From the NCBI GenBank assembly GCA_040754335.1, contig JBFMCV010000002.1, positions 496,001 through 560,000 on the forward strand: 64,000 nt of DNA, in the 5' to 3' direction. Source of the DNA: Thermodesulfobacteriota bacterium. Its GTDB lineage: Bacteria; Desulfobacterota_D; UBA1144; Nemesobacterales; UBA2774. This document shows positions 22,952 through 58,191 of this stretch, in pieces. The notes beneath the pieces are model-generated. The model did not search any database. It was not told where the DNA came from and was given only the letters and a program-made list of their open reading frames with translations. Each line of letters begins with the position of its first letter. The stretch's first letter is position 1. A program made the translations under genes and the position numbers.

Positions 22952-23170
22952 GAGAGAGGCAATTGTTTTTATCCTTCTTTTCCTTGATGAAAAGATAGCA
23001 CAGAATTTGTAGACCTCCGGAGTTTTCATCTTCGTTTTTGGCTTAGTTCCCTCCTTTGGAAAAGGAGGGGTAGGGAGGATTTTTCTTTTTTATTTTTAAA
23101 TCCCCCTTAATCCCTCCTTCGACAAGCTCAGGACAGGCTCTTTTACAAAGGGGGAAAATAAATAGCAAAC

Positions 23171-29122: not shown

Positions 29123-29709
29123 ACCGGTGCGCCTCCACGTCTTTTATGGGAAGAATAAAGACAATTGCGTTGTCAGACAAGCCGTTCGCCGGTTTTCTGC
29201 TCCATGTGAGCGGGTTTGTCCCCCTCACCCTGACACTGTTTTGTAGTGGAGGGAATTAACAGTAAAGGCAAGATTGCCGCGTGGAGCCTGTCCTGAGCGT
29301 AGTCGAAGGGCAAACTTCCGTAAGCTCCGCTCGCAATTTTAGATGCCAAGTAATTCGAGGACAAAAGTTGTCTCACCTGAATACATATAAAAGCAATTTA
29401 TTTTTCTTCTTTTCCTTGATGAAAAGAAGCAAAAATCAACCGACAGCACATAATTGGCTAAAAAATCCCTAGTTAACGCAAAAATGTTTCATTCGACCCG
29501 CAACCCCGAAACATTTTCACGCGTTAACAGCTGATTTTTTTTTCACGCCAATTCTGTGAATGTCGGGAAATACAAACACCATTCCTTCCATTCTATCCAG
29601 GAGAATTCCGGCCGCGAATTATTTAACATCTACAACAATGACGAATAAAATAGGTCGCGGCTGGCCTGTTCCGGACTCGACCCTGGTACTCGCTCCTACG
29701 GATGAATAG
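29123..29709. repeat. Repeat spacer with family F copy 1
   Basis: No gene. Family B/E pieces come first (29265-29340), then family F copy 1 (29406-29567), and a family A hairpin interrupted by a family E-like insert (29651-29700). Confidence 0.55.
29406..29567. repeat. Structured element family F, copy 1
   Basis: Hairpin CTTCTTTTC/GAAAAGAAG (29406-29429) is followed by two stacked stems: GTTAACGC (29472-29479) with GCGTTAAC (29521-29528), and AAAATGTTTC (29481-29490) with GAAACATTTT (29508-29517). It ends in AATGTCGGG. The stems differ in sequence from copies 2 and 3 but pair perfectly. Confidence 0.7.
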
Positions 29710-30399
29710 TTACTCACCGGGTGTCTGGGACTGCTGGCTCTCGTTCTTCACCTTCTGGAGGTTGACGTCGCTCACGCAGTCGCTCACGGCAGGGTAGGTG
29801 TTATTGTACTTGTTTACGCAGTAGCTCTTTATGCAGCCCGCATCCCCGCCGCACTGCTCTATTATCACGTCCGATATCCGGGCCCTGACCCGGTCCGTGC
29901 AGTAGGCTGTCCAGTCGGGGTCGTCGGCGCCCTTGTAGCCGACCGAGCATTTCTTCTTCACGCACCCGACGTCGTCGCCGCAGATGTCGTATATCTCTCC
30001 GAGCCTCTTTTCCTTTATCTCGCTCTTCGCTTTCTCCTCCGCGAGCCTCGCCTCCTGCTCCGCTTCGAGGGCTTCGTTCGTGCTCGACTTCATGTCGCTC
30101 GCAAGCCTGGACGCGCCCGGCCTGTCGAGCGTGAGCTCCTCCCAGTACCATATCGTGACGGGCTGCCCCTGTGCGTCCATCTCGACGTAGGAGTTCTTCC
30201 ACCACACCCTGCCCGACTCCGTGTCTATCTTGTGGACGACCGAGCCGTCCTGAGAGGCGGCGAGCTGGTAGCGGTTCGGGGGGCCGGAAAGGGAGAGTAT
30301 GATGAGCGTGATTATCACACCGGCGGCTACGCCCGCCGCGAAAGTAACCGCGCCTATTTTCCTGCCTGAATCCAGATCCTCGTTCAGCTCTCCGCTCAT
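29710..30399 (-). CDS. Membrane-anchored coiled-coil protein with duplicated Cys motif
   Basis: 229 residues, not recognised. A membrane helix (about 15-38) precedes a short domain, a charged Glu/Lys/Ala helix likely to be coiled coil (about 105-135), and two copies of a small Cys module: ICGDDVGCVKKKC...YC and QCGGDAGCIKSYC...DC. The Cys pattern suggests disulfides outside the cytoplasm. GGAGGAGGAG precedes the ATG. Confidence 0.75.
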   Translation of the reverse strand: MSGELNEDLDSGRKIGAVTFAAGVAAGVIITLIILSLSGPPNRYQLAASQDGSVVHKIDTESGRVWWKNSYVEMDAQGQPVTIWYWEELTLDRPGASRLASDMKSSTNEALEAEQEARLAEEKAKSEIKEKRLGEIYDICGDDVGCVKKKCSVGYKGADDPDWTAYCTDRVRARISDVIIEQCGGDAGCIKSYCVNKYNNTYPAVSDCVSDVNLQKVKNESQQSQTPGE

Positions 30400-30909
30400 G
30401 TCTCCTCCTCCGGGGGGATGGTTTTCAACATTTTACCTGACGGCGGGGGGAGAAACGATGCGGGATACAAGATGCAGGATACAAGATTAAAGACGAGATT
30501 CCCGATAAAGACATTCGGGAATGACAGAAAGAAAAATCCCTCTGAATTTGGCTTAACTTACCGAGTCACTTCAATTATGTCATTTCTTTGCCGTTTATCA
30601 CCACTGACCAATTCCTCACTTGCTCGGAATTGTTCCCCTTTGCTAAAGGGAGGGGATTACAGACAAAAGGATGAGATTGCCGCGGTCGCTTCCGGCTTCG
30701 CCTAAAGGTTACGCCAGGACAAGACGCCGTGATAAAGCGCTCCCTCGCAAAGACAGATTAAAGATGAGATTCCCGTTCGATGCCGGGAATGACGGAAAGG
30801 AAAGGATGAGATTGCCTCCGGATCAAGTCCGGTATGCCGGCCGGTATTGGATTATGCGGGGTTTTTATGTAAAATGGTCGGAAAATTTCTCTCTTATGGA
30901 GGATTGGAG
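30400..30909. repeat. Repeat spacer
   Basis: No gene. Family G (30458-30485), family B with CCCGA arms (30494-30523), family C with a CAATTCC/GGAATTG hairpin (30608-30632), and further family B pieces. Confidence 0.5.
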
Positions 30910-31692
30910 ATGTTTAAGCTGACGTGCTGCACCTCGGTTGCAAAGATCTATTTAATCCTTTTGACCATGTTCATTTTTTCCGTAACTCCAGCGCTCGCAC
31001 AGGTGAATTTTACATTCGATGAAGCGGAGTTCCTGGCCCAGAATCCGAACCTGCAATTCCAGAATTTCCTCGGTACGTTCGTAGCGCCGGGGGATTTGCT
31101 GGTGTGTGATGATGTTGTGGACTCATCAACAAACGATGATTGTTTCACACCCGGGCAGATTCTCCCAGGCCTGGTATTCCAGGCAAAACCCCAAGGTCTC
31201 GGGCCTGCCGAGATAATACTCGTCGGCTCCGATTTTTTTGGTAATGCCAACCCGACGAATGCCCTGATAGCGAACCAGTTCGGCTCGGGCCTCGATATTC
31301 TCTTTTTAACGCCGGATACCAACGCTGTCGGAATTACCGCCGGATGCCTGCTCGAGTTCGAACCGTGCACACCGAGGAATATGTCCGTATCGGTATTCGG
31401 TGAAAACGGACTCATCGGCACAACAAACCTGCTCGTATCCGACGCATTCGACTCGTTCCTGGGTATTACGTCGACTGAGCCTATTGTGGAGATATTACTG
31501 GATAATGAAATACCTATGTCCGGTGATTTCCAGAACGGGTTGCTTGATTTAAGATTCGGAACCAGGGTTCTAGAGATAAATATTCCCACGCTCAGCGAAT
31601 GGGGGATGATTGCGGCGGCGGGGGGATTGGGATTGGCGGGAGTGTGGTTTGCGGTGAGGAAGAGGAAAAGATCCACGATGCAGGATGCATGA
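30910..31692 (+). CDS. IPTL-CTERM secreted protein (NPNLxFQ family) 1
   Basis: 260 residues. Signal peptide (to ALAQ) and a body that opens VNFTFDEAEFLAQNPNLQFQNFLGTFVAPGD. This opening and the later C-rich SxGCLxE..PC part are shared with the 31950 and 49079 products. The tail IPTLSEWGMIAAAGGLG leads to a helix and RKRKR. The last residues (STMQDA) and stop come from a family G repeat. GGAGG lies seven bases before ATG 30910. Function unknown. Confidence 0.87.
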   Translation: MFKLTCCTSVAKIYLILLTMFIFSVTPALAQVNFTFDEAEFLAQNPNLQFQNFLGTFVAPGDLLVCDDVVDSSTNDDCFTPGQILPGLVFQAKPQGLGPAEIILVGSDFFGNANPTNALIANQFGSGLDILFLTPDTNAVGITAGCLLEFEPCTPRNMSVSVFGENGLIGTTNLLVSDAFDSFLGITSTEPIVEILLDNEIPMSGDFQNGLLDLRFGTRVLEINIPTLSEWGMIAAAGGLGLAGVWFAVRKRKRSTMQDA

Positions 31693-31949
31693 TTCAGGAT
31701 GAAAGATAAAAAGAAAAATCCTCCCTCACCCTCCTTTACAAAAGGAGGGAATAGAAAGGAAAAAAATTGATTCCCACTTCCGCGGGAATAACAAAATTTG
31801 CGGCCCCTTTCCTCCGGTGCGGGGGGAAGGGGCTTTTTTGTTTCTTATGCGAAGAGGTTTTCTGAATTTTTGGAACTCCGGAAAAGAGCTGGATTGAATT
31901 CATTATTTATTGTAAAATGAATACGACACTTTTCTTAGAGGAGGACGGT

Positions 31950-32699
31950 GTGATATCCAAAACCATTAACCAAAAGCTAATTGTAAAGCTGTATCTCATT
32001 GTAATCTCAGTATTTTTATTTTCTGCACCCTCAGCTTTAGCGCAGGTCACGTTCACGACCGACGACGCGGTGTTCTTCGCGCAGAATCCGAATCTGGCTT
32101 TTCAGGACTTCGAGAGCGGAAACGTTGCGCCTGGTGGCAACACCTCTTGCTCCCAGACTATAAACGAGAATACGAACGACGCGTGCTTTTCGCCGGGGGA
32201 TATACTGCCAGGGATCGAGTTCACTGCCTTATTAAATGTTTTAGTCATTGTGGGACCGGGCTTCAACAACAATCCTTTCGTTGTTCTCGTTCCCAACATC
32301 CCTCCGGATTCTCTGGATATAACATTCCCGGGCAATACAGTGAACGCCGTAGGGGTGGATCTGGGCTGCCTTGTCGAAAGCCTGGGTCCCTGCAGCGACA
32401 CTGTATTTGTTCAGGTATTCGGCGAGGGTGACGTGCTGATCGGCTCTACTTCTGTTGCAGTTACGAGTCTCTTCGATAGTTTCCTGGGTATCCAATCGGC
32501 TGAGCCCATAACGAGGATAAATGTTTCAAACGCGGTTCTGGAACGTTTCGAGGGCATAGACGGGATCGCCTTCGGCTTTACGGAATTTGCTACCAACATT
32601 CCCACGCTCAGCGAGTGGGGGATGATATCCGCCGCCGTCGGATTGGGATTGGCGGGAGTGTGGTTTGCGGTGAGGAGGAGAAAGGTAAGAGCTATATGA
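31950..32699 (+). CDS. IPTL-CTERM secreted protein (NPNLxFQ family) 2
   Basis: 249 residues from the GTG at 31950, five bases after AGAGGAGG. Signal peptide to SALAQ. Body VTFTTDDAVFFAQNPNLAFQDFESGNVAPGG, closely like the 30910 and 49079 products. Tail IPTLSEWGMISAAVGLG, then helix and RRRK. Two further, orphan copies of this tail lie directly downstream. Exported; function unknown. Confidence 0.87.
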   Translation: MISKTINQKLIVKLYLIVISVFLFSAPSALAQVTFTTDDAVFFAQNPNLAFQDFESGNVAPGGNTSCSQTINENTNDACFSPGDILPGIEFTALLNVLVIVGPGFNNNPFVVLVPNIPPDSLDITFPGNTVNAVGVDLGCLVESLGPCSDTVFVQVFGEGDVLIGSTSVAVTSLFDSFLGIQSAEPITRINVSNAVLERFEGIDGIAFGFTEFATNIPTLSEWGMISAAVGLGLAGVWFAVRRRKVRAI

Positions 32700-32774
32700 T
32701 TTCAGTTGGAATATTAATGAGAGGTACCCCCTCACCCTAACCCTCTCCCTCGCTGGGGAGAGGGAAATAAAACG

Positions 32775-32861
32775 GAGTGGGGGATGATCGCGGCGGCTGG
32801 GGGGTTGATGCTGGTCGGAGTGGTCTTTGCTATAAGGAAGAGAAAGATAAAGGCTGTTTGA
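32775..32861 (+). pseudogene. Orphan IPTL-CTERM tail, unit 2
   Basis: It encodes EWGMIAAAGGLMLVGVVFA, then RKRKIKAV and stop. There is no start codon with a ribosome site and no signal peptide. Confidence 0.75.
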
Positions 32862-32935
32862 ATACGGTTGATTTATTAATGCAAGGTGTCACCCCCCATC
32901 CTAACCTTCCCCCATACAGGGGGAAGGGAAAAGAA

Positions 32936-33025
32936 GAGTGGGGGATGATGTCCGCCGCTGTTGGATTGGGATTGGCGGGAGTGTTCTTTGCGGTGAGGAA
33001 GAGGAAGATGCGGGATGCAGGATAA
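32936..33025 (+). pseudogene. Orphan IPTL-CTERM tail, unit 3
   Basis: It encodes EWGMMSAAVGLGLAGVFFA, then RKRKMRDAG and stop. The last residues come from a family G repeat. Confidence 0.75.
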
Positions 33026-33194
33026 TGTCCATTAACCCGTTCATACTTCGATCCCCCGACGGCTCATAGCCTATGGGCGACGTGCCGCACGCTCAGTACG
33101 AACGGCTTAAAAATGAGACCCTGAAACAAGTTCAGGGTGACAAAGGTATGAATGTCTTTTCCCTTCTGGTCAGTGATGGGTATATTTTCCCTGC

Positions 33195-33647
33195 ATGCAC
33201 CGTATCAAGAACTACGTCCGTGTTAGCGATGATATAGCCACGTCGGGACAGCCGGCGCGGGAGGACTTCGCCGGAATAGCGGACGCGGGTTATGCGGCCG
33301 TCGTCAACCTCGCGACGGGCACGTCGCCTGACGCGATACCCGACGAAGGGCAGGCAGTTTCCGCTGAAGGGATGACGTATTACCACATACCGGTCGCGTG
33401 GACCGCTCCCGAATTATCGGACCTCGACCGCTTCTTCTCCGTCATGGACTCGCTCCGCGGAAAGAAGGTGTGGATTCACTGCGTCGTCAACATGCGGGCG
33501 TCCGCGTTCGTTTACCTCTACAGGCTCATCGAGCTCGGGGTGCCGGAGGATGAGGCGAGGGCCCCGATGGACGAGGTGTGGGAGCCTGACGGGATATGGC
33601 GGGCGTTCATCGAGCGGGCGAAGGAGAGTTATGCTGCGGGGCGGTAG
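33195..33647 (+). CDS. Protein tyrosine phosphatase-like protein
   Basis: 150 residues of the DSP/beta-lactamase-hydrolase-like phosphatase type. The opening SDDIATSGQPAREDFAGIADAGYAAVVNL is typical. The P-loop reads HCVVNMRASAF, Cys followed by four residues and Arg, one shorter than the classic CX5R. It is cytosolic or exported without a signal; the substrate is unknown. No clear ribosome site precedes the ATG. Confidence 0.8.
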   Translation: MHRIKNYVRVSDDIATSGQPAREDFAGIADAGYAAVVNLATGTSPDAIPDEGQAVSAEGMTYYHIPVAWTAPELSDLDRFFSVMDSLRGKKVWIHCVVNMRASAFVYLYRLIELGVPEDEARAPMDEVWEPDGIWRAFIERAKESYAAGR

Positions 33648-34131
33648 GGGTGGAGGGGTGTTGTGCATGCTGGAGAAAGACGAGATGCTGAATATTTTGG
33701 GTTGATGAATGAATATGCGGAGAATTGTTACGTAAGTGGATTAAGCCAATGGCGTCCGTTTCGTTTTGGTTTCAATAGTTCATCTCAAGCACATAGACGT
33801 CCGAGTATTCAGCCGAAAGAGGCCAGATTCTCACTCGTTCGAATCTGTTACACGCTCAGAAACGTAGTTCAGCATGACAAGATTTTTAGATTCCCGATTA
33901 AGACGTTCGGGAATGACAACATTAAAGACAAATCCACCCTAACCCTCCTTTACAAAGGAGGGAATTAAAGAAATCGCGGCTGGAAGCCGCTCCTACAGAT
34001 TTAAAGATGAGATCCTGAAACAAGCCTGTCCTGAACCATGTCCCGGCATGTCCTGAACTTGATTCAGGAACTCCAATCCGGGATCTATTCAGGAAAATCG
34101 CTCCTGCACTGTAGGCGGTCTATCTTGTGTC
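33648..34131. repeat. Repeat spacer
   Basis: No gene. Family C interior sequence (33700-33850), family B copies, a family A hairpin (33973-33998), and nested family B arms (34008-34090). Confidence 0.5.
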
Positions 34132-34767
34132 TCACAGTGCATTGATGCCGGCCTGGAGCTGCAAAAGAAGAGGCTCGTAGATACCGCTATCGGGAACGGG
34201 CTCGGTCAGGTCGCACGAGAGCGTTGCGAACACGTTGAAGTAGAGGACCTGATTGTAAAGTATGAGGAGCCTCTGCTCGAATTCGGGAGACGCGTCCACT
34301 CTGCTCGGGCCGTCGAGGAAGGTGAACCCGCCTCCGTTGTCGAGCCTTATGCAGCTGCTGAAGAAACTATTGGCCGTCTCGTCGAACGTACCGTCGTTAT
34401 TGTAGTCGGCGTCAGCCTTGATGAATTCGCACGCCGTGCCCGCGCCCGTGGGTACGCCGCTGAATCCGAAAGTGGTGGTCCCGTCGAATACCAGCACGTA
34501 AACGTTGCTGCCGTCAGAGAAGAGGTGCGTGTCGAGCGTGCTTCCGGGAGCGTTGTAGACGTAGAACTCCTCCACGTCATCGCCGTCGAGGTAGGGCGTA
34601 TTCAGCGAGGGGGAATTGCACGCCGACGGGCTGGATGTGGGCTGCGGCGTAGGCTCGGGAGTCGGCTGGGGGTTTGGGCTGTCCGAGGAAGAGCTTCCTC
34701 CGCAGGCGTAAATCAAGGCGATAAATGCAGTTACAAATATAACTAAACGTAATCCTCCAGATTTCAT
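34132..34767 (-). CDS. Lipoprotein with Pro/Thr linker
   Basis: 211 residues. Lipobox LIYAC, then Ser and Pro-Thr-Glu repeats as a spacer, and a globular domain (about 50-211) with an EF-hand-like NNDGTFDE segment in ADADYNNDGTFDE. It is probably an outer-surface protein of unknown function. ATG 34767 follows GGAGGATAAAG. It diverges from the collagen-like gene. Confidence 0.75.
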   Translation of the reverse strand: MKSGGLRLVIFVTAFIALIYACGGSSSSDSPNPQPTPEPTPQPTSSPSACNSPSLNTPYLDGDDVEEFYVYNAPGSTLDTHLFSDGSNVYVLVFDGTTTFGFSGVPTGAGTACEFIKADADYNNDGTFDETANSFFSSCIRLDNGGGFTFLDGPSRVDASPEFEQRLLILYNQVLYFNVFATLSCDLTEPVPDSGIYEPLLLQLQAGINAL

Positions 34768-34967
34768 CTTTATCCTCCGATAAAATTTGAACAATTTTAC
34801 CACAGCAGAATGGATGCGAAAAAACACCGCTGCCGGGTAATCACAATTAATTAAAACTAAAAATATAAAATGAACATAAGTGACTGAAACCTAAGAACAG
34901 TTATTAAGAATTAGCTTAAAACAACCAGTCTTATTACCGATTACTAAAATAACCTATATCGCAAAAT

Positions 34968-34996
34968 TTGACAAGTGCAATTACAAATATTAAAAT
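34968..34996 (+). promoter_or_regulatory. Sigma-70 promoter of the collagen-like gene
   Basis: TTGACA (34968-34973), 17 bases, TAAAAT (34991-34996). The leader would be about 90 bases. The AT-rich divergent region 34768-35093 holds no repeat of families A-G. Confidence 0.65.
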
Positions 34997-35093
34997 AAAC
35001 GACATTTTTGTTATCGTCTGTTACCCGTGACATGTAGTCAATACAAGATTTGTATTAGACCTTTTTAAAATCACTTTGGAGGAAGGGGATATT

Positions 35094-36488
35094 ATGAAAA
35101 GGTTCACAAGGGTTTTTTGTGCCTTCTGCTTTTTGTTGTGCGGAAGCGCCGCTTTTGCCGAAGAAGTTAGCTTTTGCGTTCTCGACGATTTTCTTCAAAT
35201 AGTCACTTACAAGGGGCCTGACACGGAATGTTCCAGTCAGGAGATACCGCTCGAAATCACCTCCGGCGAGCAGGGGCCTCCCGGACCTCCGGGACCGCAG
35301 GGTCCGCAGGGTGTGGAAGGTCCTCCGGGGCAGATCGGGCCTATAGGGCCTCAGGGTGTGCAAGGGCCAGTCGGAGCAACGGGACCTCAGGGACCTGTCG
35401 GCGCAACCGGGCCGCAAGGGCCAACCGGGACGAACGGGCTCAATGCGTTCGTAAACACGACCCCCGAGCCGCCGGGGTCTAACTGCACCGATGGAGGTAT
35501 TAAGGTGGAATCGGGACAGGACAATATTGTATCAAGCACTACTTTCGTTTGTAACGGAGCTGTCGGACCACAGGGGGTACAGGGAGACACCGGGCCTCAA
35601 GGCCCCCAAGGCAATACGGGGCCGACCGGACCGACCGGACCGCAGGGAGACCAGGGGCCTCAAGGACCGACAGGGCCAACAGGTGCTACCGGTGCAACCG
35701 GGCCGCAAGGGCCAGCAGGACTCGATGCATTCGTCAACACGACGCCCGAACCCCCTGGCGCTAACTGCGCTGGCGGCGGGGTCAAGGTTGAATCGGGGCA
35801 GAACAGCATAGTTACGAGCACTACTTATGTATGTAACGGGCCGGAGGGACCGCAGGGAGCTCAGGGTGATCCGGGGCCTCAAGGGCCGACGGGACCGACC
35901 GGACCTGCCGGAGCGACGGGACCAGCGGGGCCGCAGGGTGATCCGGGGCCGACCGGACCCACAGGGGCAACAGGACCAGCCGGTCCAGCGGGGCCAGCCG
36001 GGCCGCAGGGCGATCCCGGGCCTCAGGGCGAAGAGGGAGAAGAGGGGCCTGCAGGGCCTGCGGGGCCTGCGATTCAAATAATCGGCGGCGGGACGTCCAC
36101 CAACCTTTCGAATTCGGGATCAAGTTATTTACCCATGTTTTATTCCGAGACCAATTCTAATGAAAGTCAGGTTCAACAGCTTATGCCGGCCTCGGGTGCG
36201 ATAACATCTCTCAGGGTACGCTTGAGATCGGCTATTGCTTCGGGTGCGGGCGACAGCTACACGTTTTTCATCAGAAAGAATAGTGCCGACGCATCGGTCA
36301 CGTGCCAAATAACACACGGAAACCTCACATGCAGCGACACGACTCACTGCATCGATTTTACCGCCAATACGGACCTCATCGCTGTAAGATCCCTGCCTGC
36401 CAGTTCTCCGACGAGTCTGCCTGCGCACTGGACGGCGGTCTTCCATCCCGGAGAGACGTGTGCGTCGCTCGGAGCGGGGCCGTTCTGA
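35094..36488 (+). CDS. Secreted collagen-like protein
   Basis: 464 residues. Signal peptide (to AFA) and a short Cys-containing head. Then three Gly-X-Y blocks rich in [10 protein letters not shown], separated by two copies of a 40-residue Cys-paired module ([20 protein letters not shown]...V.STT.VCNG). A non-collagen C-terminal head (about 325-464) may be the trimerisation or binding part. Trimeric surface fibres are likely, but hydroxylation is not expected. GGAGG precedes ATG 35094. Its own promoter and terminator mark a single-gene unit. Confidence 0.9.
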
Positions 36489-36545
36489 TGTAGGGTTTTG
36501 CGCTCTCACGAAGAGCCGATAAAAATTTCAATCCTGGGAATACGA

Positions 36546-36576
36546 AGCCCGGGTGAATGCTCCCCGGGCTTTTTTG
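36546..36576 (+). terminator. Rho-independent terminator
   Basis: AGCCCGGG pairs with CCCGGGCT over an eight-base loop, followed by six T. It closes the collagen-like gene. Confidence 0.9.
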
Positions 36577-36852
36577 TGCGCGCGGACGTGCGGGCGTATT
36601 CGGTTCTGTGTAGGGAAAGAAAAAGCGAGATTCCCGATCGTGGTCGGGAACGACAAAACCTAGATCCTGAAATAAATTCAGGATGACTGATTTAAATGTA
36701 AACCCCCACCCGAACCCTCCCCCTTGGGAAGGGGGAGGGAATTAGTTGGTTGTGCTGAACTTGTCGAAGTAGGACGTGTCGGGCTGCGTGTGGTGGTAAA
36801 AGCAACAACGGTTCACTAGAATCGTATATGAGCGCACAACGTGCGCTTTGTG
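36577..36852. repeat. Repeat spacer
   Basis: No gene. Family B with CCCGA arms (36630-36657), family B with CCTGAA arms (36664-36687), family D (36703-36735), and the palindrome GCGCACAACGTGCGC (36832-36846), six bases from the stop of the 36853 gene. Confidence 0.65.
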
Positions 36853-40257: not shown

Positions 40258-40325
40258 GGGTTAACGCTCCCGGGGTGATTGGCTATATTATGTGCGGGGG
40301 AGGGGGAAGATGCAAATGCGACCTG

Positions 40326-40470
40326 TTATTCCATTAAAACGAGTTTGAGTGGAATAAGGAGGGTGGTTATTCCAATGGAATGGAATAAGGAAGGGCCTTA
40401 TTCCATTAATTTGCGTTTTAGTGGAATAAGGGGTATTCTTATTCCATTAAGTTAGAATAAATTGGAATAA
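40326..40470 (+). promoter_or_regulatory. Four-unit operator array upstream of the Fic gene
   Basis: Four inverted repeats TTATTCCA-N-TGGAATAA at 40326-40357, 40367-40388, 40398-40429 and 40439-40470, with inner spacers of 16, 6, 16 and 16. Unit starts are 41, 31 and 41 bp apart, so all half-sites fall on about the same face of the helix. The array ends ten bases before the Fic ATG. It is not found elsewhere in the window. Confidence 0.85.
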
Positions 40471-40480
40471 GAGAGCGGAT

Positions 40481-48191: not shown

Positions 48192-48199
48192 TCACCCGC
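48184..48199. repeat. Stop-codon palindrome (48192 gene)
   Basis: GCGGGTGCTCACCCGC contains the stop codon of the 48192 gene (48192-48194). Beyond it the gene strand reads GGGCATACGGTC, the family E flank. Confidence 0.75.
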
Positions 48200-48902: not shown

Positions 48903-49078
48903 CGGTTTTACCTATCCTTGGCAGGGGGGATTTAGCTGCGGACAACTGAATTATACTCGGAGAATCGGGCGGTGTGAAATTTCCGGGAGGGGGCGGCGCC
49001 GGGGGATCGGGATATTTTATTAGCTCCTTCAATTGTGATAGAATTACAGGAACACTTCTTGAAGGAGGATGGACTCTC

Positions 49079-49843: not shown

Positions 49844-50114
49844 TACGCTTTCGACCCTTCGACGAGCTCAGGACAGGCTAGGCTCAGGGCGAACGGGTTA
49901 AAAACCAAATCCTCCCTAACCTATTTTGACTTAGGCTGCGATGAGCTAAAAAGTTAAGTTGCTCTGCAGCCTTTGTTGGTGAGGAGTCCGAATGCTCGCT
50001 TGTTCGCATTCGTTCTTTGCTAAAGGAGGGAATTAAAGACAAAGAGGAGATTCCCGGTTTCGCAGGAATGACAGGAAGATTAGTGGACTTTCCCCATTCT
50101 AACTAAATACCTGA
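49844..50114. repeat. Repeat spacer
   Basis: No gene. A family E fragment, then a long family C copy with a CGAATGC/GCATTCG hairpin (49909-50036), and a family B fragment. Confidence 0.55.
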
Positions 50115-50465
50115 TCAATAGGGAGCGCGGTAGAGGAGCAGCCCTCCGGCAGGCACGTTCGGAACGAAGTACGAGCAGTCAAACGGCGGCGGCTGATGCC
50201 CGGGAGGAAGCCCCGGCACCCAGATGCGGCACTCACCCGGCGGGGGATACTGTCCCGGCGGGATTACGACGTAGCCGTATGGAATTCCGGGCGGGTATCC
50301 CTTGTAATAATCATCGTCGTCATAATCATAATAGTCTTCGTAATATTCGTCCCGGTCGTCGTCCCAATCGTCGTCATCGTCGTCCGCCGCCGCCGCTGCC
50401 GCGCACAGGATTACCATGAGCAGGCTTATGAGGACGGGCCTGAACGGAAGGAATTTGTCTTTCAT
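50115..50465 (-). CDS. Secreted Asp/Tyr-rich, Pro-rich protein
   Basis: 116 residues. Signal peptide (to AAAAA), then a run of Asp with Trp, Tyr and Glu (about 26-56), then PPGQYPPPGECRIWVPGLPP and similar Pro-rich turns with two Cys. The PPG-ECR-W pattern occurs in many small Gram-negative periplasmic proteins of unknown role. The acidic tract may bind cations. ATG 50465 sits after AGGTG. Confidence 0.75.
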   Translation of the reverse strand: MKDKFLPFRPVLISLLMVILCAAAAAADDDDDDWDDDRDEYYEDYYDYDDDDYYKGYPPGIPYGYVVIPPGQYPPPGECRIWVPGLPPGHQPPPFDCSYFVPNVPAGGLLLYRAPY

Positions 50466-51088
50466 CGAGCACCTCATGGTCTAGTGATACCATACGGATA
50501 TTCCGTTGCAACAAGATTTTGCTCAACTTATTAAAGATGAATCCTCCCTTGCCTATTTTTGGTTTAGGCGACGGTGAGCTGGAAGTTAATTTGCCCAGCT
50601 GCCTTTGTTGTTATGGCGTCCGGTTCTTGCTATTTTGGCTTCCGTTGCTACGATGCGGAGAAATAATAAGGTTTGTGTACTCATCCATTAGAGACCAATT
50701 CCTTACTCGCTCGGAATTGTTGTTCAGAACCGTTCTTTGCCAAAGGAGGGAATTGAAATGCAAAGGATGAGATTGCTTCGCTTCAATCGCAATTGTTGCA
50801 ATAATGATTTCCCCCTTAGAAAAAGGGGGATTAAGGGGGATTTAAAATAGAAAAGAAAATCCTCCCTAACCCTCCTTTTCCAAAGGAGGGAATTAAAACT
50901 CCGTCCTTCGACGGGCTCCAGGCTTCGCCAATAGGCTTCCGTCTTCGCTAAAACTACGCCGGACGAGACGCCGTGATAAATCGCTCCGCTCGCAATGACA
51001 TATAATGTATGAAAGAGGAAATGTTTTTAGAATCTGATATTATTCTAACGGCAAGGGTTGTATCCAAAATTAAATCCGGAGGAATTAC
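50466..51088. repeat. Repeat spacer
   Basis: No gene. A long family C copy (50535-50757) shows nesting: outer CGGTTCT/AGAACCG arms enclose a CAATTCC/GGAATTG hairpin. Further family C and B copies follow. Confidence 0.6.
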
Positions 51089-51511
51089 ATGGCGCTGACA
51101 CGAGAGCAGATGGACAGGATGATCGACGAACATTTCGGGTATGAGGCGAAGGACGACGTGGAGGGGGTGCTGAGCACTCTCACGGAGGACGTCGTCCACG
51201 ACATAGTAGGCTCGCCGACGGGGCCGACGTACGGAAGGGAGAACGCGCGGGCGTTCTACGAGGGGATGTTCGCAGACCTCGAAGGGGGGAAGGTTACGTG
51301 CATAAGGAGGCTTTACGGGGAGAACTTCCTCGTCGACGAATCTCTATGGGAGGGCAGGGCGCCGGGCAGCCCTTTCGGCATCGAGGGCAAGGGGCGTCCG
51401 CTCAAGTTCAGGCTGCTGCACGTGATCGAGTTCACGGACGACTCTATGATAAAGAGGGAGAACGTGTGGATAGACCTCGCGGAGATAATAAAGCAGCTGC
51501 CGAAGGAGTGA
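51089..51511 (+). CDS. SnoaL-like/NTF2-fold protein
   Basis: 140 residues, cytosolic. VEGVLSTLTEDVVHDIVG and the GRENARAFYEGMF helix, then RLLHVIEFTDDSMIKRENVWID, match SnoaL-like polyketide-cyclase/isomerase relatives. Substrate unknown. GGAGG lies seven bases before the ATG. Confidence 0.85.
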   Translation: MALTREQMDRMIDEHFGYEAKDDVEGVLSTLTEDVVHDIVGSPTGPTYGRENARAFYEGMFADLEGGKVTCIRRLYGENFLVDESLWEGRAPGSPFGIEGKGRPLKFRLLHVIEFTDDSMIKRENVWIDLAEIIKQLPKE

Positions 51512-52363
51512 GGGGGTTGTCTGGTTACGCGAGTAAGGACAATCCTAAAACATGTTTTCTTCTTTTCCTTGATGAAAAGAAGCAAAAATCACACACGTAG
51601 TGTGTTTTACGGTTGTTAAGCAGCTACAGGTGCAAATCTAGCAATCGTATAAATTGAGCGGTAGCGGAGGCTTAAGGATCGTGTGCCTGCGGGTGCTCAC
51701 CCGCACATAATTTGCTAAAAATCTTGCGTTTAAGCTAAAATCTTTCAAATGGAAAGCTGAAAGATTTTTTCGCTTCAACACGCGATTTTCTTGACGATTA
51801 ACCAGCAGAAAATAACGGAGCCAAGAAAGTGGCACGTTGTCTGTTAGGATAGAGCGACCGATTCCTCGCTTGCTCGAAATCGTTTCTGTAATGTCGGGGA
51901 AGGATAAAAAGCGAGATTGCCGCGCGGAGTTTATCCTGAGCGGAGTCGAAGGACTCGCAGTGACAAATAAAAAATATATCGCGGCTGGAAGCCGCTCCTA
52001 CAGACTGTAAAGACGAGATGCTGAAATAAATTCAGCATGACAATAATATTAAGGTGACACCCCCATCCTGAAACAATCCTGAAACGAGTTCAGGACATGG
52101 TTCAGGACAGGCTCCTGACCTTCCCCCTAGCAGGGGGGAAGGGGGAAGATGAAACGTGCTTCGACCCTTCGTCCTTCGACAGGCTCAGGATGAACGGAGC
52201 TCAGGACAGGCTCGCAGATCAGTATTGTCCTTGCTCCGTTATTTGGCGAAAGCTGAGGAGTGACGGAGCAATTATATATGAGCGCAGATTCTGCGCCTCA
52301 GGACGAACGGGTTGGGCACTATGGGTGGTTTAAGCAGATGAGGTGCGGATGAATCGTATATGA
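51512..52363. repeat. Repeat field with family F copy 2
   Basis: No gene. Family F copy 2 spans 51559-51898. Then family A (51979-52003), family B with GCTGAA arms (52016-52042), nested family B, family D, and a long family E copy (52160-52318). Confidence 0.6.
51559..51898. repeat. Structured element family F, copy 2
   Basis: Hairpin CTTCTTTTC/GAAAAGAAG (51559-51582). Stems: GCGTTTAAGC (51726-51735) with GCTTCAACACGC (51772-51783, imperfect), and AAAATCTTTCA (51737-51747) with TGAAAGATTTT (51758-51768, perfect). The right part, from about 51803, is nearly identical to copy 3. An insert of about 110 bp carrying GCGGGTGCTCACCCGC separates the first hairpin from the stems. Confidence 0.7.
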
Positions 52364-52378
52364 GCACACATTGTGTGC
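52364..52378. repeat. Stop-codon palindrome (52379 gene)
   Basis: GCACACATTGTGTGC abuts the stop codon of the 52379 gene. The gene strand then reads TCATATACGATTC. Confidence 0.8.
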
Positions 52379-52984
52379 TTAGAAGTTCTCCATCTCCTGT
52401 TTGAGCCTGCGCTCTTCGACGCGGGGGTTGAGCTCGACGCTGTAGTAAAGCACGGAGAGTATGGTGTTCACGTTCCCGCCCTCGAGCGTGAGGAAGATTT
52501 CCGTCCGGGGCGTGCGCCAGGCGCTCTGGAGCACGAGCCTGCCTTCCGCCACCGCCTTGCCGTAGCCCTCGGGGTTCGCCTCCTCCTTCCCCTCCCGCCA
52601 CACCTTGTCGTCGCGCGCGGGCTGGCCGTACTCACCCGCGAGGACGCCCTTTATCTTCTCGTAGTCCTTTACGTACTGCGCGGGGTCGCCGTACTTGTTC
52701 GTCACGGCGTAACCGCCGAGGACGAGCTTATCGTTCGTGAACAGGTATCCGATCTCGGCGTCGAGCCCCTCGTACTTGCCCTTGTACGAGACCGCGAGGT
52801 CGTAGGGCGGGAGATCGGTCTCGCTCACGGGGGCTGAGTTCTCGGTGAGCTTCACCTGCGCGGGCGTCATGCCCCACCGCGTGCTGCGGAAGTCGTGGGA
52901 CGGGTCCTTCTGCGCGTGGGCGTGATCGATGAGGGCGGTAAATATGATGAACGCGATGAGCGCCGGCGTGACGGGATTCTTCAA
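52379..52984 (-). CDS. WGMSK-family periplasmic protein 3
   Basis: 201 residues from the TTG at 52984, chosen because CAGGAG lies eight bases upstream and a signal peptide (to AHAQ) then starts the protein. An upstream ATG is in frame but worse placed. Opening HDFRSTRWGMTPAQVKLTE is shared with the 24221 and 39562 products. It is secreted but not lipidated, unlike them. Function unknown. Confidence 0.75.
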   Translation of the reverse strand: MKNPVTPALIAFIIFTALIDHAHAQKDPSHDFRSTRWGMTPAQVKLTENSAPVSETDLPPYDLAVSYKGKYEGLDAEIGYLFTNDKLVLGGYAVTNKYGDPAQYVKDYEKIKGVLAGEYGQPARDDKVWREGKEEANPEGYGKAVAEGRLVLQSAWRTPRTEIFLTLEGGNVNTILSVLYYSVELNPRVEERRLKQEMENF

Positions 52985-53461
52985 TGCGGTTTCTCCTGCG
53001 GAGAAAGTATACATGCAGGATGCAAGATGTAGGATACAGGATACATGATCCGTCCTTCGACCCTTCGTCCTTCGACAGGCTCAGGATGAACGGAGCTCAG
53101 GACAGGCGCGCAGTTCAGTATTATCCTGTCTCCATTATTTTATTTGGCGAAAGTTGATGAGTGACGGAGGAATCGTACATGAGCGCAGATTCTGCGCCTC
53201 AGGACGAACGGGTTAAATACTAAATCCCCCTTTAGCAAAGGGGGATTTAGGGGGATTTAAAGAAAAGTAAAGAAAAATCCACCCTAGCCTAATTTGGCTT
53301 AGGCCACGAACAGCCGCAAATTTATTTACTTTGGTGCCTTTGTTGTTCGGGCGTCCGGTTCTTACGCTTGCTCAGAACCGTTCTTTACAAAGGAGGGAAT
53401 TAAGTGCAAAAGACGGGATTGCCACGCCTTCGGCTCGCAATGACAACCAAATCTTCGCTTC
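52985..53461. repeat. Repeat spacer
   Basis: No gene. Family G (53012-53048), a long family E copy (53050-53214), family C copies, one with CGGTTCT/AGAACCG around a CTTGCTC loop (53354-53381). Confidence 0.6.
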
Positions 53462-53632
53462 CTATTGACCCAGGTCGTTGAGGAGCCTCTTAAGGAGCTC
53501 TTCGCGCTTCTTCATCTCTTCGCGGAAGCTCATGCTGTCGGTGTCGGCTATCTCCATCCTGAGGTCGGAGAGATAGCTCGAGAGAATCTCTTTCATCATT
53601 TCGACATCTTCTGCTGACAAATTGAGCTGCAT
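53462..53632 (-). CDS. Small duplicated helical protein 1
   Basis: 56 residues: MQLNLSAEDVEMMKEILSSY and, near the end, FREEMKKREELLKRLL. It is probably two helices, the second strongly charged. No family name is known to me. GGGGGTAA precedes the ATG. A paralogue lies at 53870-54043, and the copied segment includes upstream DNA. Confidence 0.75.
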   Translation of the reverse strand: MQLNLSAEDVEMMKEILSSYLSDLRMEIADTDSMSFREEMKKREELLKRLLNDLGQ

Positions 53633-53869
53633 GGCGGTTACCCCCTATTCTCATTTGGCATATAAATATCATAGGTTCGCCGCTCTCAAATTGCAAGCGG
53701 GGGAGGGGGAGAACTTTCGGGTTGTCTGGAGGGGGTGGGACTGATGCGTTGTTTCGCAGTGGGATCCATGTTATCGCGGCTGGAAGCCGCTCTTACGGGT
53801 GGGATGCGGGATACGGGATTAAATATGTGGATTCCCGATCAGGGTCGGGCATTACAGCGGGGATTACGC
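53633..53869. other. Upstream region of small gene 1
   Basis: The bases 53640-53715 match those upstream of the second copy (54050-54125), including GGTTCGCCG and AAATTGCAAGCGGGGGAGGG. A family A hairpin lies at 53773-53797. Confidence 0.6.
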
Positions 53870-54043
53870 TTACGACTTCCCGATATCCGCTATCAGCCTC
53901 TTCAGAAGGACCTCTCTCTTTTTCAGCTCTTCACGGAAATCCATGCTGTCCGTATCCGCGATCTCCATCCTGAGGTCGGAGAGGTAGCTCGCGAGGATCT
54001 CTTTCAGCATGTCTGCTTCTTCTGCCGTCAAATTCAGCTGCAT
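53870..54043 (-). CDS. Small duplicated helical protein 2
   Basis: 57 residues, paralogue of the 53462 product. The middle SYLSDLRMEIADTDSM is identical. Differences lie at the ends (AEEADMLKEILA; VLLKRLIADIGKS). GGGGGTAA precedes the ATG. Function unknown; the matching charged helix suggests self-association. Confidence 0.75.
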   Translation of the reverse strand: MQLNLTAEEADMLKEILASYLSDLRMEIADTDSMDFREELKKREVLLKRLIADIGKS

Positions 54044-54366
54044 GGCGTTTACCCCCTGTCGTCAGTCGGTATATGAATTATCTTAGGTTCGCCGTGCTGA
54101 AATTGCAAGCGGGGGAGGGGGGGTGATGCGAGATACAGGATAAAGGATGCATGATGCAGGATGAGATGGGTGCTGCGCTCGCAATGACAAAGAAAAGGCA
54201 AATCCACCCTAACCCTCCTTTGTTAAAGGAGGGAATTAAAAGACAAATATGAGATTCCCGATCAGCGCCTGCCCTGAACCATGTCCCGTACTTGATACGG
54301 GATCTATTCAGGGTCGGGAATGACAGAGAGGAAGGGGACGGGATTGCCGAGGTTCGGCGGCGAAAT
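54044..54366. repeat. Repeat spacer
   Basis: No gene. The duplicated upstream region (to about 54125), family G, family C, and nested family B with CCCGA arms (54252-54331). Confidence 0.55.
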
Positions 54367-54394
54367 AAAAAAGGGAGACCGGAGTCTCCCTTTT
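54367..54394. terminator. Bidirectional terminator of the 54420 gene
   Basis: AAAAGGGAGAC pairs with GTCTCCCTTTT around CGGA, giving T tracts on both strands. Confidence 0.85.
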
Positions 54395-54419
54395 CTTTTC
54401 ACTGGTTGATTTATAAATC

Positions 54420-54998
54420 TTACGCGGTCTGTTTCCTTCTCCTGTAAGCCATGAATCCGGCTATTCCGAGCGACGCTGCCAAACCTAACAGCCCTATCTC
54501 GGACACAGTCGGTATAGGGGCGAGAGCCGGCCTTGAGAAATTGCAGCAGAAGACCTCGACCTGCGTCTGGTCAGTAGGCTGGCAGAAATCTTCAAAACTC
54601 GGATTGCAGGGGATTTCGCCCTGGCAAAAAAAGCTGATGGCTCCGGTGCCGTTCGTTACAGGGCCGCCGGGGCCGCCCGGTCCGCAGCCGGCCTGTTTCC
54701 TGCCCGTCCAGATGCCTACGTCGTATCCGTTCGACTCGCATACGAACTGCGCCCAGGAGTTTGCCTGGTCGCAGCTATTGGTATTACAGTCGCCGAAGCT
54801 GAAGTTGGAATTGCACGCTTCGTCGGGCCAGGCTTCTGTGCCTTCGCTCCACTTCAGTATTGCCTCGTTGGGGTTCTGGCACTGCTCGACAGCTGGCGTA
54901 ATGCACGCCCCTTCGGGCAGCTCCACGGGCTGCGCCCAGAGCCTCGGGGCCGCGGTAAGAATAATAATGAAAAATATCGATGAATATATTTTTTTCAC
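54420..54998 (-). CDS. IPTL-CTERM secreted protein, Cys-rich
   Basis: 192 residues from the GTG at 54998, nine bases after AGGAGG; an ATG touching the AGGAGG is less likely. Signal peptide to LWAQ, then a body with about fourteen Cys and a GGPGGP turn. The tail IPTVSEIGLLGLAASLG is a divergent IPTL signal (Ile for Trp), then helix and RRRK. Its last 30 bases and terminator match those of the 55545 gene. Confidence 0.82.
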   Translation of the reverse strand: MKKIYSSIFFIIILTAAPRLWAQPVELPEGACITPAVEQCQNPNEAILKWSEGTEAWPDEACNSNFSFGDCNTNSCDQANSWAQFVCESNGYDVGIWTGRKQAGCGPGGPGGPVTNGTGAISFFCQGEIPCNPSFEDFCQPTDQTQVEVFCCNFSRPALAPIPTVSEIGLLGLAASLGIAGFMAYRRRKQTA

Positions 54999-55492
54999 GG
55001 TATCCATCCTCCTGGATTGTTAATTAACGCGGTTGGAAACATCCTACAATAATTCGATAAGCGGGTCAATGAGGAGAGATTGCGGGGGGATAATGCAGGA
55101 TACGGGATACAAGATGCAGGATGCGGGATGAAAGACGAGATTCCCGATCGGCGCCTGCCCTGAACCATGTCCCTTACTTGATACGGGATCTATTCAGGGT
55201 CGGGAATGACAGAATGAAAAGATAAACAATAGATTTCTCGCGCTGCTCGAAATGACAAGATGAGGATGAGATTGCCGCGCCTTCGGCTCGCAATGACAGG
55301 TGGGGGGAGATTGCCGCGGTCGCTTCGCTCCCTCGCAATGACACTTCCTTTTCTGTCTTCGCGAGGCTGTCTTATAGCCGTGGCGATCTCTCTTTTCGCT
55401 GGAGATTGCCGCGTGGAGTTTATCCTGAGCATAGTCGAAGGGCTCGCAAAGACAGGAAGGGGACGGGATTGCCGAGGTTCGGCGGCGAAATA
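54999..55492. repeat. Repeat spacer
   Basis: No gene. Family G (55094-55130), nested family B with CCCGA arms (55139-55211), family B with GCCGCG arms (55268-55343), and a copied segment before the terminator. Confidence 0.55.
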
Positions 55493-55520
55493 AAAAAGGG
55501 AGACCGGAGCCTCCCTTTTC
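55493..55520. terminator. Terminator of the 55545 gene
   Basis: AAAAGGGAG pairs with CTCCCTTTT. It is a copy of 54367-54394 with one changed arm base. Confidence 0.75.
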
Positions 55521-55544
55521 TTTTCACTGGTTGATTTATATATC

Positions 55545-56246
55545 TTACGCGGTCTGTTTCCTTCTCCGGTAAGCCATGAGTCCGGCCATTCCGAAAAACG
55601 CCGCCATGGCTGTCATGCCCCATTCGGAGAGCGTAGGTATGGGCGTGGTGACGGAATCGCCTCTGAATCCGACGCAGGTGTATGTCTGGCCGAACCCGTT
55701 GCTGTCAACGAAATCCGACGACCAGATACTGCCCCTCGGTGTCAAAGTATTGGCTTCCGGGCAAGTGTTGGAATCGATCCAAGTGAGGCTGCCGGATTCG
55801 TATCCCAGGGCGAAGCATAGCGCTTCGGCTGCGTCGATCGGCACCCCGTTATTGTTGGCGTCGGGCGCGTTGCAGACGCCGAACAGGGGATTTTCAGCGT
55901 CGCAGCATCCCGTCAGGTTCACGTCCGGCATTACATCGCCTTCCGCATTGCCGGGATCGACGGCGGCTCTCATCGCACCACTTCCAGTTGATCCGAACGA
56001 GAGCGTCTCCGTCGCAGGGTCGAAATTACAGAAGAAATCCTCGGGTGCGCAGCCGTTCGTCGGACAGCCGATCCAGTGGAGCGTGCTGTTCGTGTACGCA
56101 CGCAGGTCCACTCCTCTTGCCGGTTGGCCCCACATAGGTATGTCAGTTACGAGATCGTCGCATGTGGCGGGAAGAGGCTGTGCAAGTAATTGCGGGGATG
56201 AGATAAAAAGGAACGTAAGGGCTAATGATAAAAAGAATTTTTTCAT
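55545..56246 (-). CDS. IPTL-CTERM secreted protein
   Basis: 233 residues from the ATG at 56246, six bases after AGGAGG. Signal peptide to LLAQ. The Cys-containing body (CPTNGCAPEDFFC, CCDAENPLFGVC) is of unknown role. Tail IPTLSEWGMTAMAAFFG, then helix and RRRK. The 3' end and terminator are shared with the 54420 gene, while the bodies hardly match, so the tails were probably exchanged or copied. Confidence 0.85.
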   Translation of the reverse strand: MKKFFLSLALTFLFISSPQLLAQPLPATCDDLVTDIPMWGQPARGVDLRAYTNSTLHWIGCPTNGCAPEDFFCNFDPATETLSFGSTGSGAMRAAVDPGNAEGDVMPDVNLTGCCDAENPLFGVCNAPDANNNGVPIDAAEALCFALGYESGSLTWIDSNTCPEANTLTPRGSIWSSDFVDSNGFGQTYTCVGFRGDSVTTPIPTLSEWGMTAMAAFFGMAGLMAYRRRKQTA

Positions 56247-56404
56247 TCCCATCCTCCTCAAAGTTTTTTAAGTATTCCAATAGTCAGCATTTTACAATAG
56301 TTTGATAATATTTGTCAACGTTGATGGGGGGTTCAGTTTCTGCTGCCTTGACACAGCGTTCTGAATTAAAATAGACTTTGTATATCAATCAATGGGGGTA
56401 TGCA

Positions 56405-57259
56405 ATGAACGTTAACGACGATTTCATAAGCTGCTGGAACGAGATACTCGTCCCGAAATGGAACAGGTTCCGCCACCTGCTGTCGGGGAACGGCGCCGTG
56501 CACAGCGCCGCGGCGTACGAATATTTCCGGATAAAGCCCGGCGACAAGGTGCTCGACATCGGGTGCGGTTACGGGGAGACGACCATAGAGATGGGCAGGA
56601 TGGTCGGCCCTTCGGGAGAGGTGCTGGGGCTCGATTGCACGCAGGCGTTCCTCGACGTCGCAAACAGGGAGAGGGACGAGGCGGGGCTTACGAACGTGAA
56701 GTTCGTCCTCGGCGACGCGCAGAGTTACGAGCTGCCGGCGAATTACTACGACGTGGTGTATTCGCGGTTCGGCGTGATGTTTTTCCAGAACATCGTCTAC
56801 GCGCTCAAGAACGCGCACAGGGCGCTCAAGCCCGGAGGAAAGCTCTGCATGATAGTGTGGAGGACGATCAGGGACAACCCGTGCTGGGGCCTGGCTAAAG
56901 ACATAGCGCTCAAGCATCTGCCGCCTCCGGGAGAGGGCGCGCAGACGTGCGGGCCTGGGCCGTTCGCGCTCGCCGACGAGGAGACGGACAGGGGGATGCT
57001 CAGGGCGGCGGGGTTCGAGAAGGTGGACCTGTTCATGAGGAACGACGCCGAGGTGTGCATCGGGACGAGCATTGAGGAGGCGCTCGACTACCAGATACTC
57101 GTCGGCCCGTCGGGGGAGATAATACGGGAGGCCGCGGAGCTCGGGCAGGAGAAGCTCCCCCTGGTGCGCGAGGATATGAAGCGGGCGATGGAGCCTTACG
57201 TGAAGAACGGGGGCGTGTACATGCCGTCGAGCACGTGGTTCATCATGGCGAGGAAGTAA
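56405..57259 (+). CDS. Class I SAM-dependent methyltransferase
   Basis: 284 residues, cytosolic. Motif I VLDIGCGYGETT binds SAM, followed by LGLDCTQAFLDVAN, a GDAQSYELP motif, and FQNIVYALKNAHRALKPGGKLCMIVWR. This is the UbiE/Methyltransf_11 kind; substrate unknown. GGGGGTATGCA precedes ATG 56405; an upstream ATG is less well placed. Confidence 0.9.
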   Translation: MNVNDDFISCWNEILVPKWNRFRHLLSGNGAVHSAAAYEYFRIKPGDKVLDIGCGYGETTIEMGRMVGPSGEVLGLDCTQAFLDVANRERDEAGLTNVKFVLGDAQSYELPANYYDVVYSRFGVMFFQNIVYALKNAHRALKPGGKLCMIVWRTIRDNPCWGLAKDIALKHLPPPGEGAQTCGPGPFALADEETDRGMLRAAGFEKVDLFMRNDAEVCIGTSIEEALDYQILVGPSGEIIREAAELGQEKLPLVREDMKRAMEPYVKNGGVYMPSSTWFIMARK

Positions 57260-58191
57260 ATTCTTCCGATGGCCGCACACGCGGGGTTTAGGAAAAGACT
57301 AAAGAAAAGGAACGCTAATTTTATTTCTTCTTTTCCTTGATGAAAAGAAGCAAAAATCACCCGACAGAACAGAATTTGCTAAAAATATCGCATTAAGGCT
57401 AAAATCGTTCAATTCTGCCCCAATTGGCAAAGTAGTTTAGTGATAGCCAAGGTTAATTTATTTCATAATGGTAGGTGAGGGCGTCCGAATGCGCGCTCGC
57501 TTGCATTCGTTCCCTGAACGATTTTCACGCCTTAATACTCTATTTTCTTAACGATTTGCCAGTAGAAAATAACGGAGCCAAGAAAGTGGCACGTTGTCTG
57601 TTAGGATAGAGCGACCGATTCCTCGCTTGCTCGAAATCGTTTCTGTAATGTCGGGAAAGGAAAAGAACGGGATTGCCGCGCGGAGTTTATCCTGAGCGGA
57701 GTCGATGGACTCGCAATGACACCCTTTTTCTGTCTTCGCGAGGCTACGAATGTAGCCGTGGCGATCTCGCTTTATTCATGAGATTGCCGCGGTCGCTATG
57801 CTCCCTCGCAAAGACAGATTAAAAGCAAATCCACCCTATCCCTCCTTTACAAAGGAGGGGATAAAATGAAAAAGAACAGACGGGATGCTGAAACAAGTTC
57901 AGCATGACAAAATTATTAGATTCCCGATCGTGGTTCCTGAATAGATCCCGGATCGGAGTTCCTGAATCAAGTTCAGGACAGGCCGGGACATGGTTCAGGA
58001 CAGGCGGGAATGACAGAAAAATTAAGGAAGCCTAACCCATTCATGCTTCGACCCTTCGGCTAAGCTCAGGACAGGCGCGCAGTTCGGTATTATCCTGTCT
58101 CCATTATTTGGCGAAAGTTGATGAGTGACAGAGGAATCGTACATGAGCGCAGATTCTGCGCCTCAGGACGAACGGGTTGAGTTTTCATACC
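57260..58191. repeat. Repeat field with family F copy 3
   Basis: No gene. Family F copy 3 (57328-57654), family B copies, family C (57826-57862), family B with GCTGAA arms (57882-57908), nested family B, and a long family E copy (58030-58178). Confidence 0.6.
57328..57654. repeat. Structured element family F, copy 3
   Basis: Hairpin CTTCTTTTC/GAAAAGAAG (about 57327-57350). Stems: ATTAAGGC (57392-57399) with GCCTTAAT (57529-57536), and AAAATCGTTCA (57401-57411) with TGAACGATTTT (57515-57525), both perfect. The long loop holds a GAATGC/GCATTC hairpin of family C interior type. Confidence 0.7.

Follow-up and report, generated by a model that had tools for sequence, protein, structure and literature searches.

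The 64,000-nucleotide (nt) stretch of DNA analyzed here (the window) belongs to a 3.26-Mb genome of Candidatus Dadabacteria and contains three copies of a long structured element, which we designate family F, located on the + strand at positions 29406–29567 (copy 1), 51559–51898 (copy 2), and 57327–57655 (copy 3). The 32-mer TTCTTTTCCTTGATGAAAAGAAGCAAAAATCA is present without mismatch at 29407, 51560, and 57328, each time on the + strand, with 0 occurrences expected (100 shuffles). The fold of family F is real and conserved, and the family is a widespread repeat in two distantly related bacterial groups and their viruses, its shape being kept while its letters vary. The original prediction had located all three copies in the window, but its count of three was too low: the genome has 29 distinct places at E ≤ 0.001 (a tally obtained by merging 54 covariance-model rows with E ≤ 1 by hand; a DNA search of the same genome gave 50 pieces), and the window holds fragments in addition to the three copies, whose features are as follows.

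29406–29429, + strand: copy 1, 5′ hairpin CTTCTTTTC-CTTGAT-GAAAAGAAG; the position is exact and the hairpin covaries in other copies of the family
29430–29438, + strand: copy 1, tail CAAAAATCA, the ATCA of which pairs with the TGAT of the hairpin loop (loop–tail covariation)
29440–29566, + strand: copy 1, body with the nested stems CCGACA/TGTCGG, ACATAATTGGC/GCCAATTCTGT, GTTAACGC/GCGTTAAC, and AAAATGTTTC/GAAACATTTT (cmsearch, 150 bits)
29472–29479/29521–29528, + strand: copy 1, outer stem, perfect
29481–29490/29508–29517, + strand: copy 1, inner stem, perfect
51559–51591, + strand: copy 2, 5′ hairpin and tail
51592–51704, + strand: copy 2, ~113-nt insert CACACGTAGTGTG...CACCCGC, which separates the hairpin from the body and recurs at other copies
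51705–51898, + strand: copy 2, body with an extra module ahead of the TCTGTAATGTCGGG end
51726–51735/51772–51783, + strand: copy 2, outer stem, imperfect
51737–51747/51758–51768, + strand: copy 2, inner stem, perfect
57327–57359, + strand: copy 3, 5′ hairpin and tail
57360–57655, + strand: copy 3, body, in which the apical loop is long and the extra 3′ module is that of copy 2
57392–57399/57529–57536, + strand: copy 3, outer stem, perfect
57401–57411/57515–57525, + strand: copy 3, inner stem, perfect

As had been claimed from the letters, each inner stem has its own exact complement, and the complement of the outer stem is perfect in two copies (1 and 3). Copy 1 has 2 further stems lying outward of these, CCGACA/TGTCGG (29440–29445/29561–29566) and ACATAATTGGC/GCCAATTCTGT (29448–29458/29547–29557). 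The family F core of ~160 nt consists of (i) a 9-bp hairpin with a 6-nt loop; (ii) a linker, CAAAA, and a tail that pairs with the loop; and (iii) a body of stacked stems, in which the outer stem is followed by an internal loop, a further stem, another internal loop of that kind, the inner stem, and the apical loop. The internal loops connecting the stems are asymmetric and conserved (GC-TA-AAAA opposite TTTT-CTTAAC-GC), and the apical loop is C-rich and close to AATTCNNCCNCANCCC. Long forms have extra sequence in the apical loop or on the 3′ side, and other repeats are nested in the hairpin tip or between the hairpin and the stem.

The insert module of copy 2 (CACACGTAGTGTG...GCGGGTGCTCACCCGC) recurs in the host genome at C5:133 kb, C2:24 kb, and C1:430 kb. 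At L019, L024, L224:879–1188, and L226:1107–1187, other palindromic repeats lie within the family F hairpin tip, as if tips were favored for landing. Places with only the hairpin, which were inspected for a longer autonomous form, yielded only other nested repeats.

The proposal that the covarying stems reflect a selected fold was borne out by a covariance model built from copies of the family, a wider search, and a covariation test. The first alignment comprised 36 elements, namely window copy 1 and 35 of the 40 elements found in the search, from which RNAalifold proposed 32 pairs, 15 of them with double changes. The model R2, composed of these pairs and the inner stem added from column counts, was run on 62 chosen loci, mainly from other genomes, and gave 68 matches; 67 of these were absent from the building set (L164 is identical to L038 of the first alignment), and the median similarity of the test sequences to the nearest of the 36 building sequences was 0.77. 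Standard pairs filled 90.3% of 2774 cells in the 68 sequences compared with 72.5% in shuffles, pair counts that are tilted in favor of the structure by an alignment fitted to it. Double changes occurred in 28 of the 42 pairs (482 double-changed cells versus 146 in shuffles), and the covariation was 0.415 versus 0.117 in shuffles, with 0 of 500 shuffles as high and slid structures reaching at most 0.075. Local inverted duplication with no conserved frame fails as an explanation, since the asymmetric internal loops, the apical loop, and the hairpin tail keep both sequence and register from family to family and into Bacteroidota. No known RNA family had been recognized in the window, in agreement with Rfam 15, which gave 0 matches there at gathering score; at E ≤ 1, two weak, chance-like matches below the gathering score appeared in L061 and none in L005, L015, or L093.

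The 5′ module has a pairing of its own. Of the 133 elements, 124 could be parsed and 9 could not; in 100 of the 124, all of the last four bases of the hairpin loop pair with the tail, and 13 distinct loop/tail combinations were found, including TGAT/ATCA, CGAT/ATCG, CGAG/CTCG, TGAC/GTCA, TCAT/ATGA, and AGAT/ATCT. Over these 13 combinations, 3.38 of 4 pairs formed, compared with 2.49 after shuffling (0 of 10000 shuffles as high); in a joint test of the registers of shift 0, 1, and 2, shift 1 alone gave a positive result. Loop–tail cells were 93.8% paired in the 68-sequence alignment, with six double-changed cells versus 0.3 in shuffles. The loop and tail thus form a pseudoknot or, alternatively, take part in two mutually exclusive hairpins.

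Family F was found with the same covariance model in 22 of the 57 genomes of the phylum, spanning several families, and dense carriers stand beside genomes with none, the copy number ranging from 0 to tens among genomes of one family. Its subfamilies are genome-specific. Records with the exact hairpin belonged mostly to Candidatus Dadabacteria and in some cases to Bacteroidetes. With a second model, matches were obtained in 9 of the 59 genomes surrounding a Ferruginibacter genome (Bacteroidota; best E value 6e-16), and ten aligned sequences of that group have the same type of hairpin, the tail, and the GC-TA-AAAA / TTTT-CTTAAC-GC loops, while their apical domain is larger. Other Bacteroidetes loci hold additional variants, in some of which the bulge is on the opposite side; at L061, L063, L066, L070, and other MAG-29 loci (Bacteroidetes), the hairpin is the same and the CTTAAC bulge lies on the 5′ side of the stem, that is to say, the internal loop is mirrored.

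A prophage in genome G012 has fourteen copies, all on the + strand, in ~36 kb among terminase, portal, scaffold, major head, and tail genes. These 14 copies (L122 and L123, G012:C1:234–271 kb) separate the blocks of prophage genes, one per 2–3 kb. In IMG/VR, four contigs carry family F, and in three of them the copies come after portal, scaffold, or head genes in a manner similar to G012. The phage copies match the subfamily of the corresponding host clade. Runs of copies in one direction in G012 at first suggested an integron cassette array; this was rejected, as the intervening genes serve phage head formation and packaging and keep a conserved order, and no integron integrase was over cut-off.

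Of the two molecules allowed by the original prediction, RNA and single-stranded DNA, the data favor DNA, and in particular its bottom strand, with RNA as the less likely choice. For a test of mismatches, the left arm was aligned to the reverse complement of the right arm and all mismatches were scored alike in 118 elements (15 of 133, longer than 185 nt, were set aside). Isolated top-strand mismatches with two Watson–Crick pairs on each side were 25 A.C/C.A versus 2 G.T/T.G (p = 6e-6), or 18 versus 2 when each clade and position contributed a single count (p = 4e-4). A looser count, made on 88 of 130 rows after removal of identical and over-95%-similar rows, gave 58 A.C/C.A versus 16 G.T/T.G. 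According to DNA energies, the bottom strand was the more stable in 108 of the 118 elements, a count that, like those of mismatches, includes elements of shared ancestry. Because an A.C on the top strand is a G.T on the bottom strand, the pairing of the bottom strand seems to be the one kept, and the selected fold is probably that of the bottom strand. Against the background of ~5000 Watson–Crick pairs, the bottom-strand G.T wobble amounts to only ~0.5% of pairs, which is low for RNA and thus suggests DNA.

The direction of the elements follows the GC skew. After removal of repeats and short flanks, 97 of 109 elements (from 130; up to 3 kb of flank) had a positive flank skew in the direction of the element: host contig 2 at 496–644 kb has positive skew and + copies, and the negative-skew stretches of G006 hold − copies though the genes there run both ways. 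Neighboring genes were analyzed for 134 elements after a similar filter, and between convergent or divergent neighbors, where gene direction offers no explanation, the element agreed with the skew in 36 of 43 cases. Positive skew in the direction of the element is usually read as placing the bottom strand on the leading-strand template; by this reading, the bottom strand of family F would lie there. A study on chromosomal integrons likewise describes the recombinogenic bottom strands of attC sites on the leading-strand template, an arrangement that limits folding (PMC11023631). The idea of a gene terminator was weakened by the agreement with GC skew even where the neighbors converge or diverge.

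The account of family F that we tentatively prefer, though we rate it somewhat short of probable, is a non-coding, non-autonomous, and probably mobile DNA element that is recognized in its folded single-stranded form, with the bottom strand as the likeliest one to fold. The fold and its covariation, the loop–tail pairing, the excess of A.C over G.T, the skew-linked orientation, the occurrence in phage contigs and in two phyla, and the failure of four known types of machinery to track the family are demonstrated, whereas we infer that the molecule is DNA and not RNA, that it is mobile, and that a dedicated protein reads it. The hairpin/pseudoknot of ~33 nt and the long stacked stem, with its two conserved asymmetric internal loops and conserved apical loop, would form a docking surface for a putative recombinase or nuclease acting on the folded strand; phages would carry the element, and copies would settle between genes with the better-folding strand on the leading-strand template. 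On the evidence of strand and orientation, an attC-like single-stranded-DNA mode is, with the same tentative confidence, the best single account. A bolder form, which we consider somewhat unlikely, is a new class of single-stranded-DNA element of Dadabacteria, Bacteroidota, and phages, read through a DNA pseudoknot and internal loops by a recombinase of a new type; if true, it would be a second, integrase-independent solution to the problem that attC sites solve. Very few DNA sites selected for a single-stranded fold are known, and family F, which is untied to known enzymes, points to a DNA-handling protein that its many natural variants may help to find.

A number of observations weigh against this DNA account. 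The upstream gene was co-oriented with the element in 86 of 113 cases (downstream, 52 of 104), as would also result from an RNA element at gene 3′ ends, although promoter avoidance explains part of it, and in tandem contexts with both genes opposed to the element the skew was positive in only 10 of 13. The orientation of transposable elements at large is reportedly linked with replication, so a skew-linked direction is shared by elements other than single-strand ones. In helices 4 and 6 of the model, pairing reaches only ~75% of cells, and the shuffle controls leave the kinship of the tested rows in place, which makes their p-values optimistic. The integron integrase TIGR02249 was over cut-off in 0 of 21 genomes. 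In a comparison of the 22 carriers of the phylum, defined by a covariance-model match, with its 35 non-carriers, Y1_Tnp was present in 9 carriers versus 17 others and absent from 12 of the 14 carriers in the host's own family, reverse transcriptase was present in 2 carriers (G012 and G019) versus 7 others, and Y2_Tnp occurred in 1 of the 57 genomes (G011, a non-carrier) and in 0 carriers; such absences are suggestive only, as the genomes vary in completeness and a phage could supply the enzyme. In local BLAST comparisons of flanks, neither a clean pre-insertion site nor a duplicated target was seen. Only L101 versus L224/L226 was informative, and it resembles a deletion between short repeats, L101 retaining half of the hairpin, and intergenic DNA of the same genus (G001 versus G000) was too diverged to align.

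The two GAAAAGAA repeats between which the loss at L101 apparently occurred lie in the arm of the hairpin and in the right flank, which is rich in purines. The flank comparisons of L056 with L184 and of L073 with L115 were uninformative on insertion.

A structured RNA, most likely transcribed from the bottom strand, for example, a phage-borne small RNA or a processing or attenuation element at gene 3′ ends, is in our view an unlikely explanation of family F. The hairpin, A-rich linker, and tail pairing resemble an H-type pseudoknot, the unpaired loops are conserved in sequence, the upstream genes are co-oriented as described, the elements come after late genes in phage contigs, and the tolerance of G.U on the bottom strand would suit an antisense RNA. 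However, such an RNA would be antisense to the upstream gene in most contexts, G.U-type pairs make up less than 1% of paired cells in the 68-sequence alignment, which is low for RNA, no Rfam match reached gathering score, and the skew-linked orientation persists at convergent and divergent gene pairs. Orientation with the skew and a single-strand fold would also fit a fixed, replication-linked DNA signal (such as a single-strand initiation or fork-related site) that is mostly spread by phages and not actively mobile, and the same relative positions of copies between portal, scaffold, and head genes of phages speak for it; given the variation from 0 to tens of copies within one family, the genome-specific subfamilies, and the 35 of 57 genomes of the phylum without a match, we regard this signal as doubtful. 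Still more doubtful are old palindromic repeats whose arms are held complementary by template-switch correction, with no selection on the fold. Half-changed intermediates are very few among the covarying pairs, and other repeats are inserted in hairpin tips and loops, as correction would have it, but the asymmetric TA/CTTAAC internal loops, the C-rich apical loop, and the CAAAA linker survive it, the loop–tail pairing covaries as well, and simple correction yields no bias of A.C over G.T.

It is highly improbable that a known system (integron attC, IS200/IS605 or REP/RAYT, TnpB guide RNA, retron, or group II intron) has family F as its non-autonomous form, and the tests made place the family outside the attC, REP/RAYT, TnpB, and retron elements. 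The likeness to attC lies in an imperfect hairpin that is divergent in sequence and conserved in structure, in the probable folding of the bottom strand, with which the A.C/G.T asymmetry and the DNA folding energies are consistent, and in the probable position of that strand on the leading-strand template, as described for attC (PMC11023631). By contrast, none of the 118 elements has the attC boxes RYYYAAC at one end and GTTRRRY at the other (RYYYAAC in the first 25 nt of the body in 5 of 118, GTTRRRY in the last 25 nt in 0 of 118), no integron integrase was over cut-off in the 21 genomes, and family F differs from attC in its additional 5′ pseudoknot module, its conserved internal and apical loops, and the absence of gene-cassette arrays. 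The REP/RAYT and IS200/IS605 elements are likewise short, intergenic, hairpin-bearing, strand-oriented, and of high copy number, and IS200/IS605 has hairpin ends and lagging-strand targeting; unlike them, family F is ~160 nt long with stacked internal loops, and Y1 does not track it. REPs bear a GTAG-type tag. TnpB occurred in 3 of the 22 carriers versus 11 of the 35 others; of these three, G004 has a weak TnpB below cut-off, and G037 and G039 each have one weak element match. The ideas of IS200/RAYT, IS91/ISCR (Y2), TnpB, and reverse transcriptase were set aside, as the presence or absence of the enzyme does not track family F.

Among other repeats, those of the BOX/ERIC/NEMIS type are, as is family F, modular, nested, intergenic palindromes; to our knowledge, none has a cross-phylum architecture of a pseudoknot and internal loops like that of family F. 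The STAXI motif is also a repeated pseudoknot that has been discussed as RNA or single-stranded DNA; it differs from family F in consisting of tandem pseudoknots near other kinds of genes (PMC2864571). The OTH-22-1 motif, for which a structured single-stranded DNA related to attC was proposed in several phyla, has a 5′ RYYYAAC (PMC8632094), whereas only 5 of 118 family F elements have this box near the body start. Searches of an open-access library gave no description of family F; subscription papers and ISfinder lay outside this search, so the family may already be in print. As probes of the strand and molecule in which a covarying motif works, the comparison of A.C with G.T mismatches and that of direction with GC skew are cheap and general.

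Many copies in G023 lie inside a larger unit whose outer inverted repeats end in GCAATGACA. Similar sequence flanks window copy 1, which suggests that an ordinary inverted-repeat element and family F have been joined in a composite. These flanks, and the family F fragments of the window, at least three in number, are given below.

29337–29372, + strand: left flank of copy 1, probable outer inverted repeat of a larger composite, resembling the left flanks of many copies in another family, as in G023 (match by eye)
29614–29642, − strand: right flank of copy 1, probable partner of the outer inverted repeat (match by eye)
5113–5141, + strand: solo 3′ end, degenerate
21970–21985, + strand: solo 3′ end TCTGTAATGTCGGG of a related element
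22973–23000, + strand: truncated solo 5′ hairpin

The genes adjoining the window copies are ordinary (SnoaL-like, methyltransferase, DUF4440, and GFA). Two proteins of the window, encoded at 55545–56261 and 21195–21896, have an IPTL-CTERM sorting motif.

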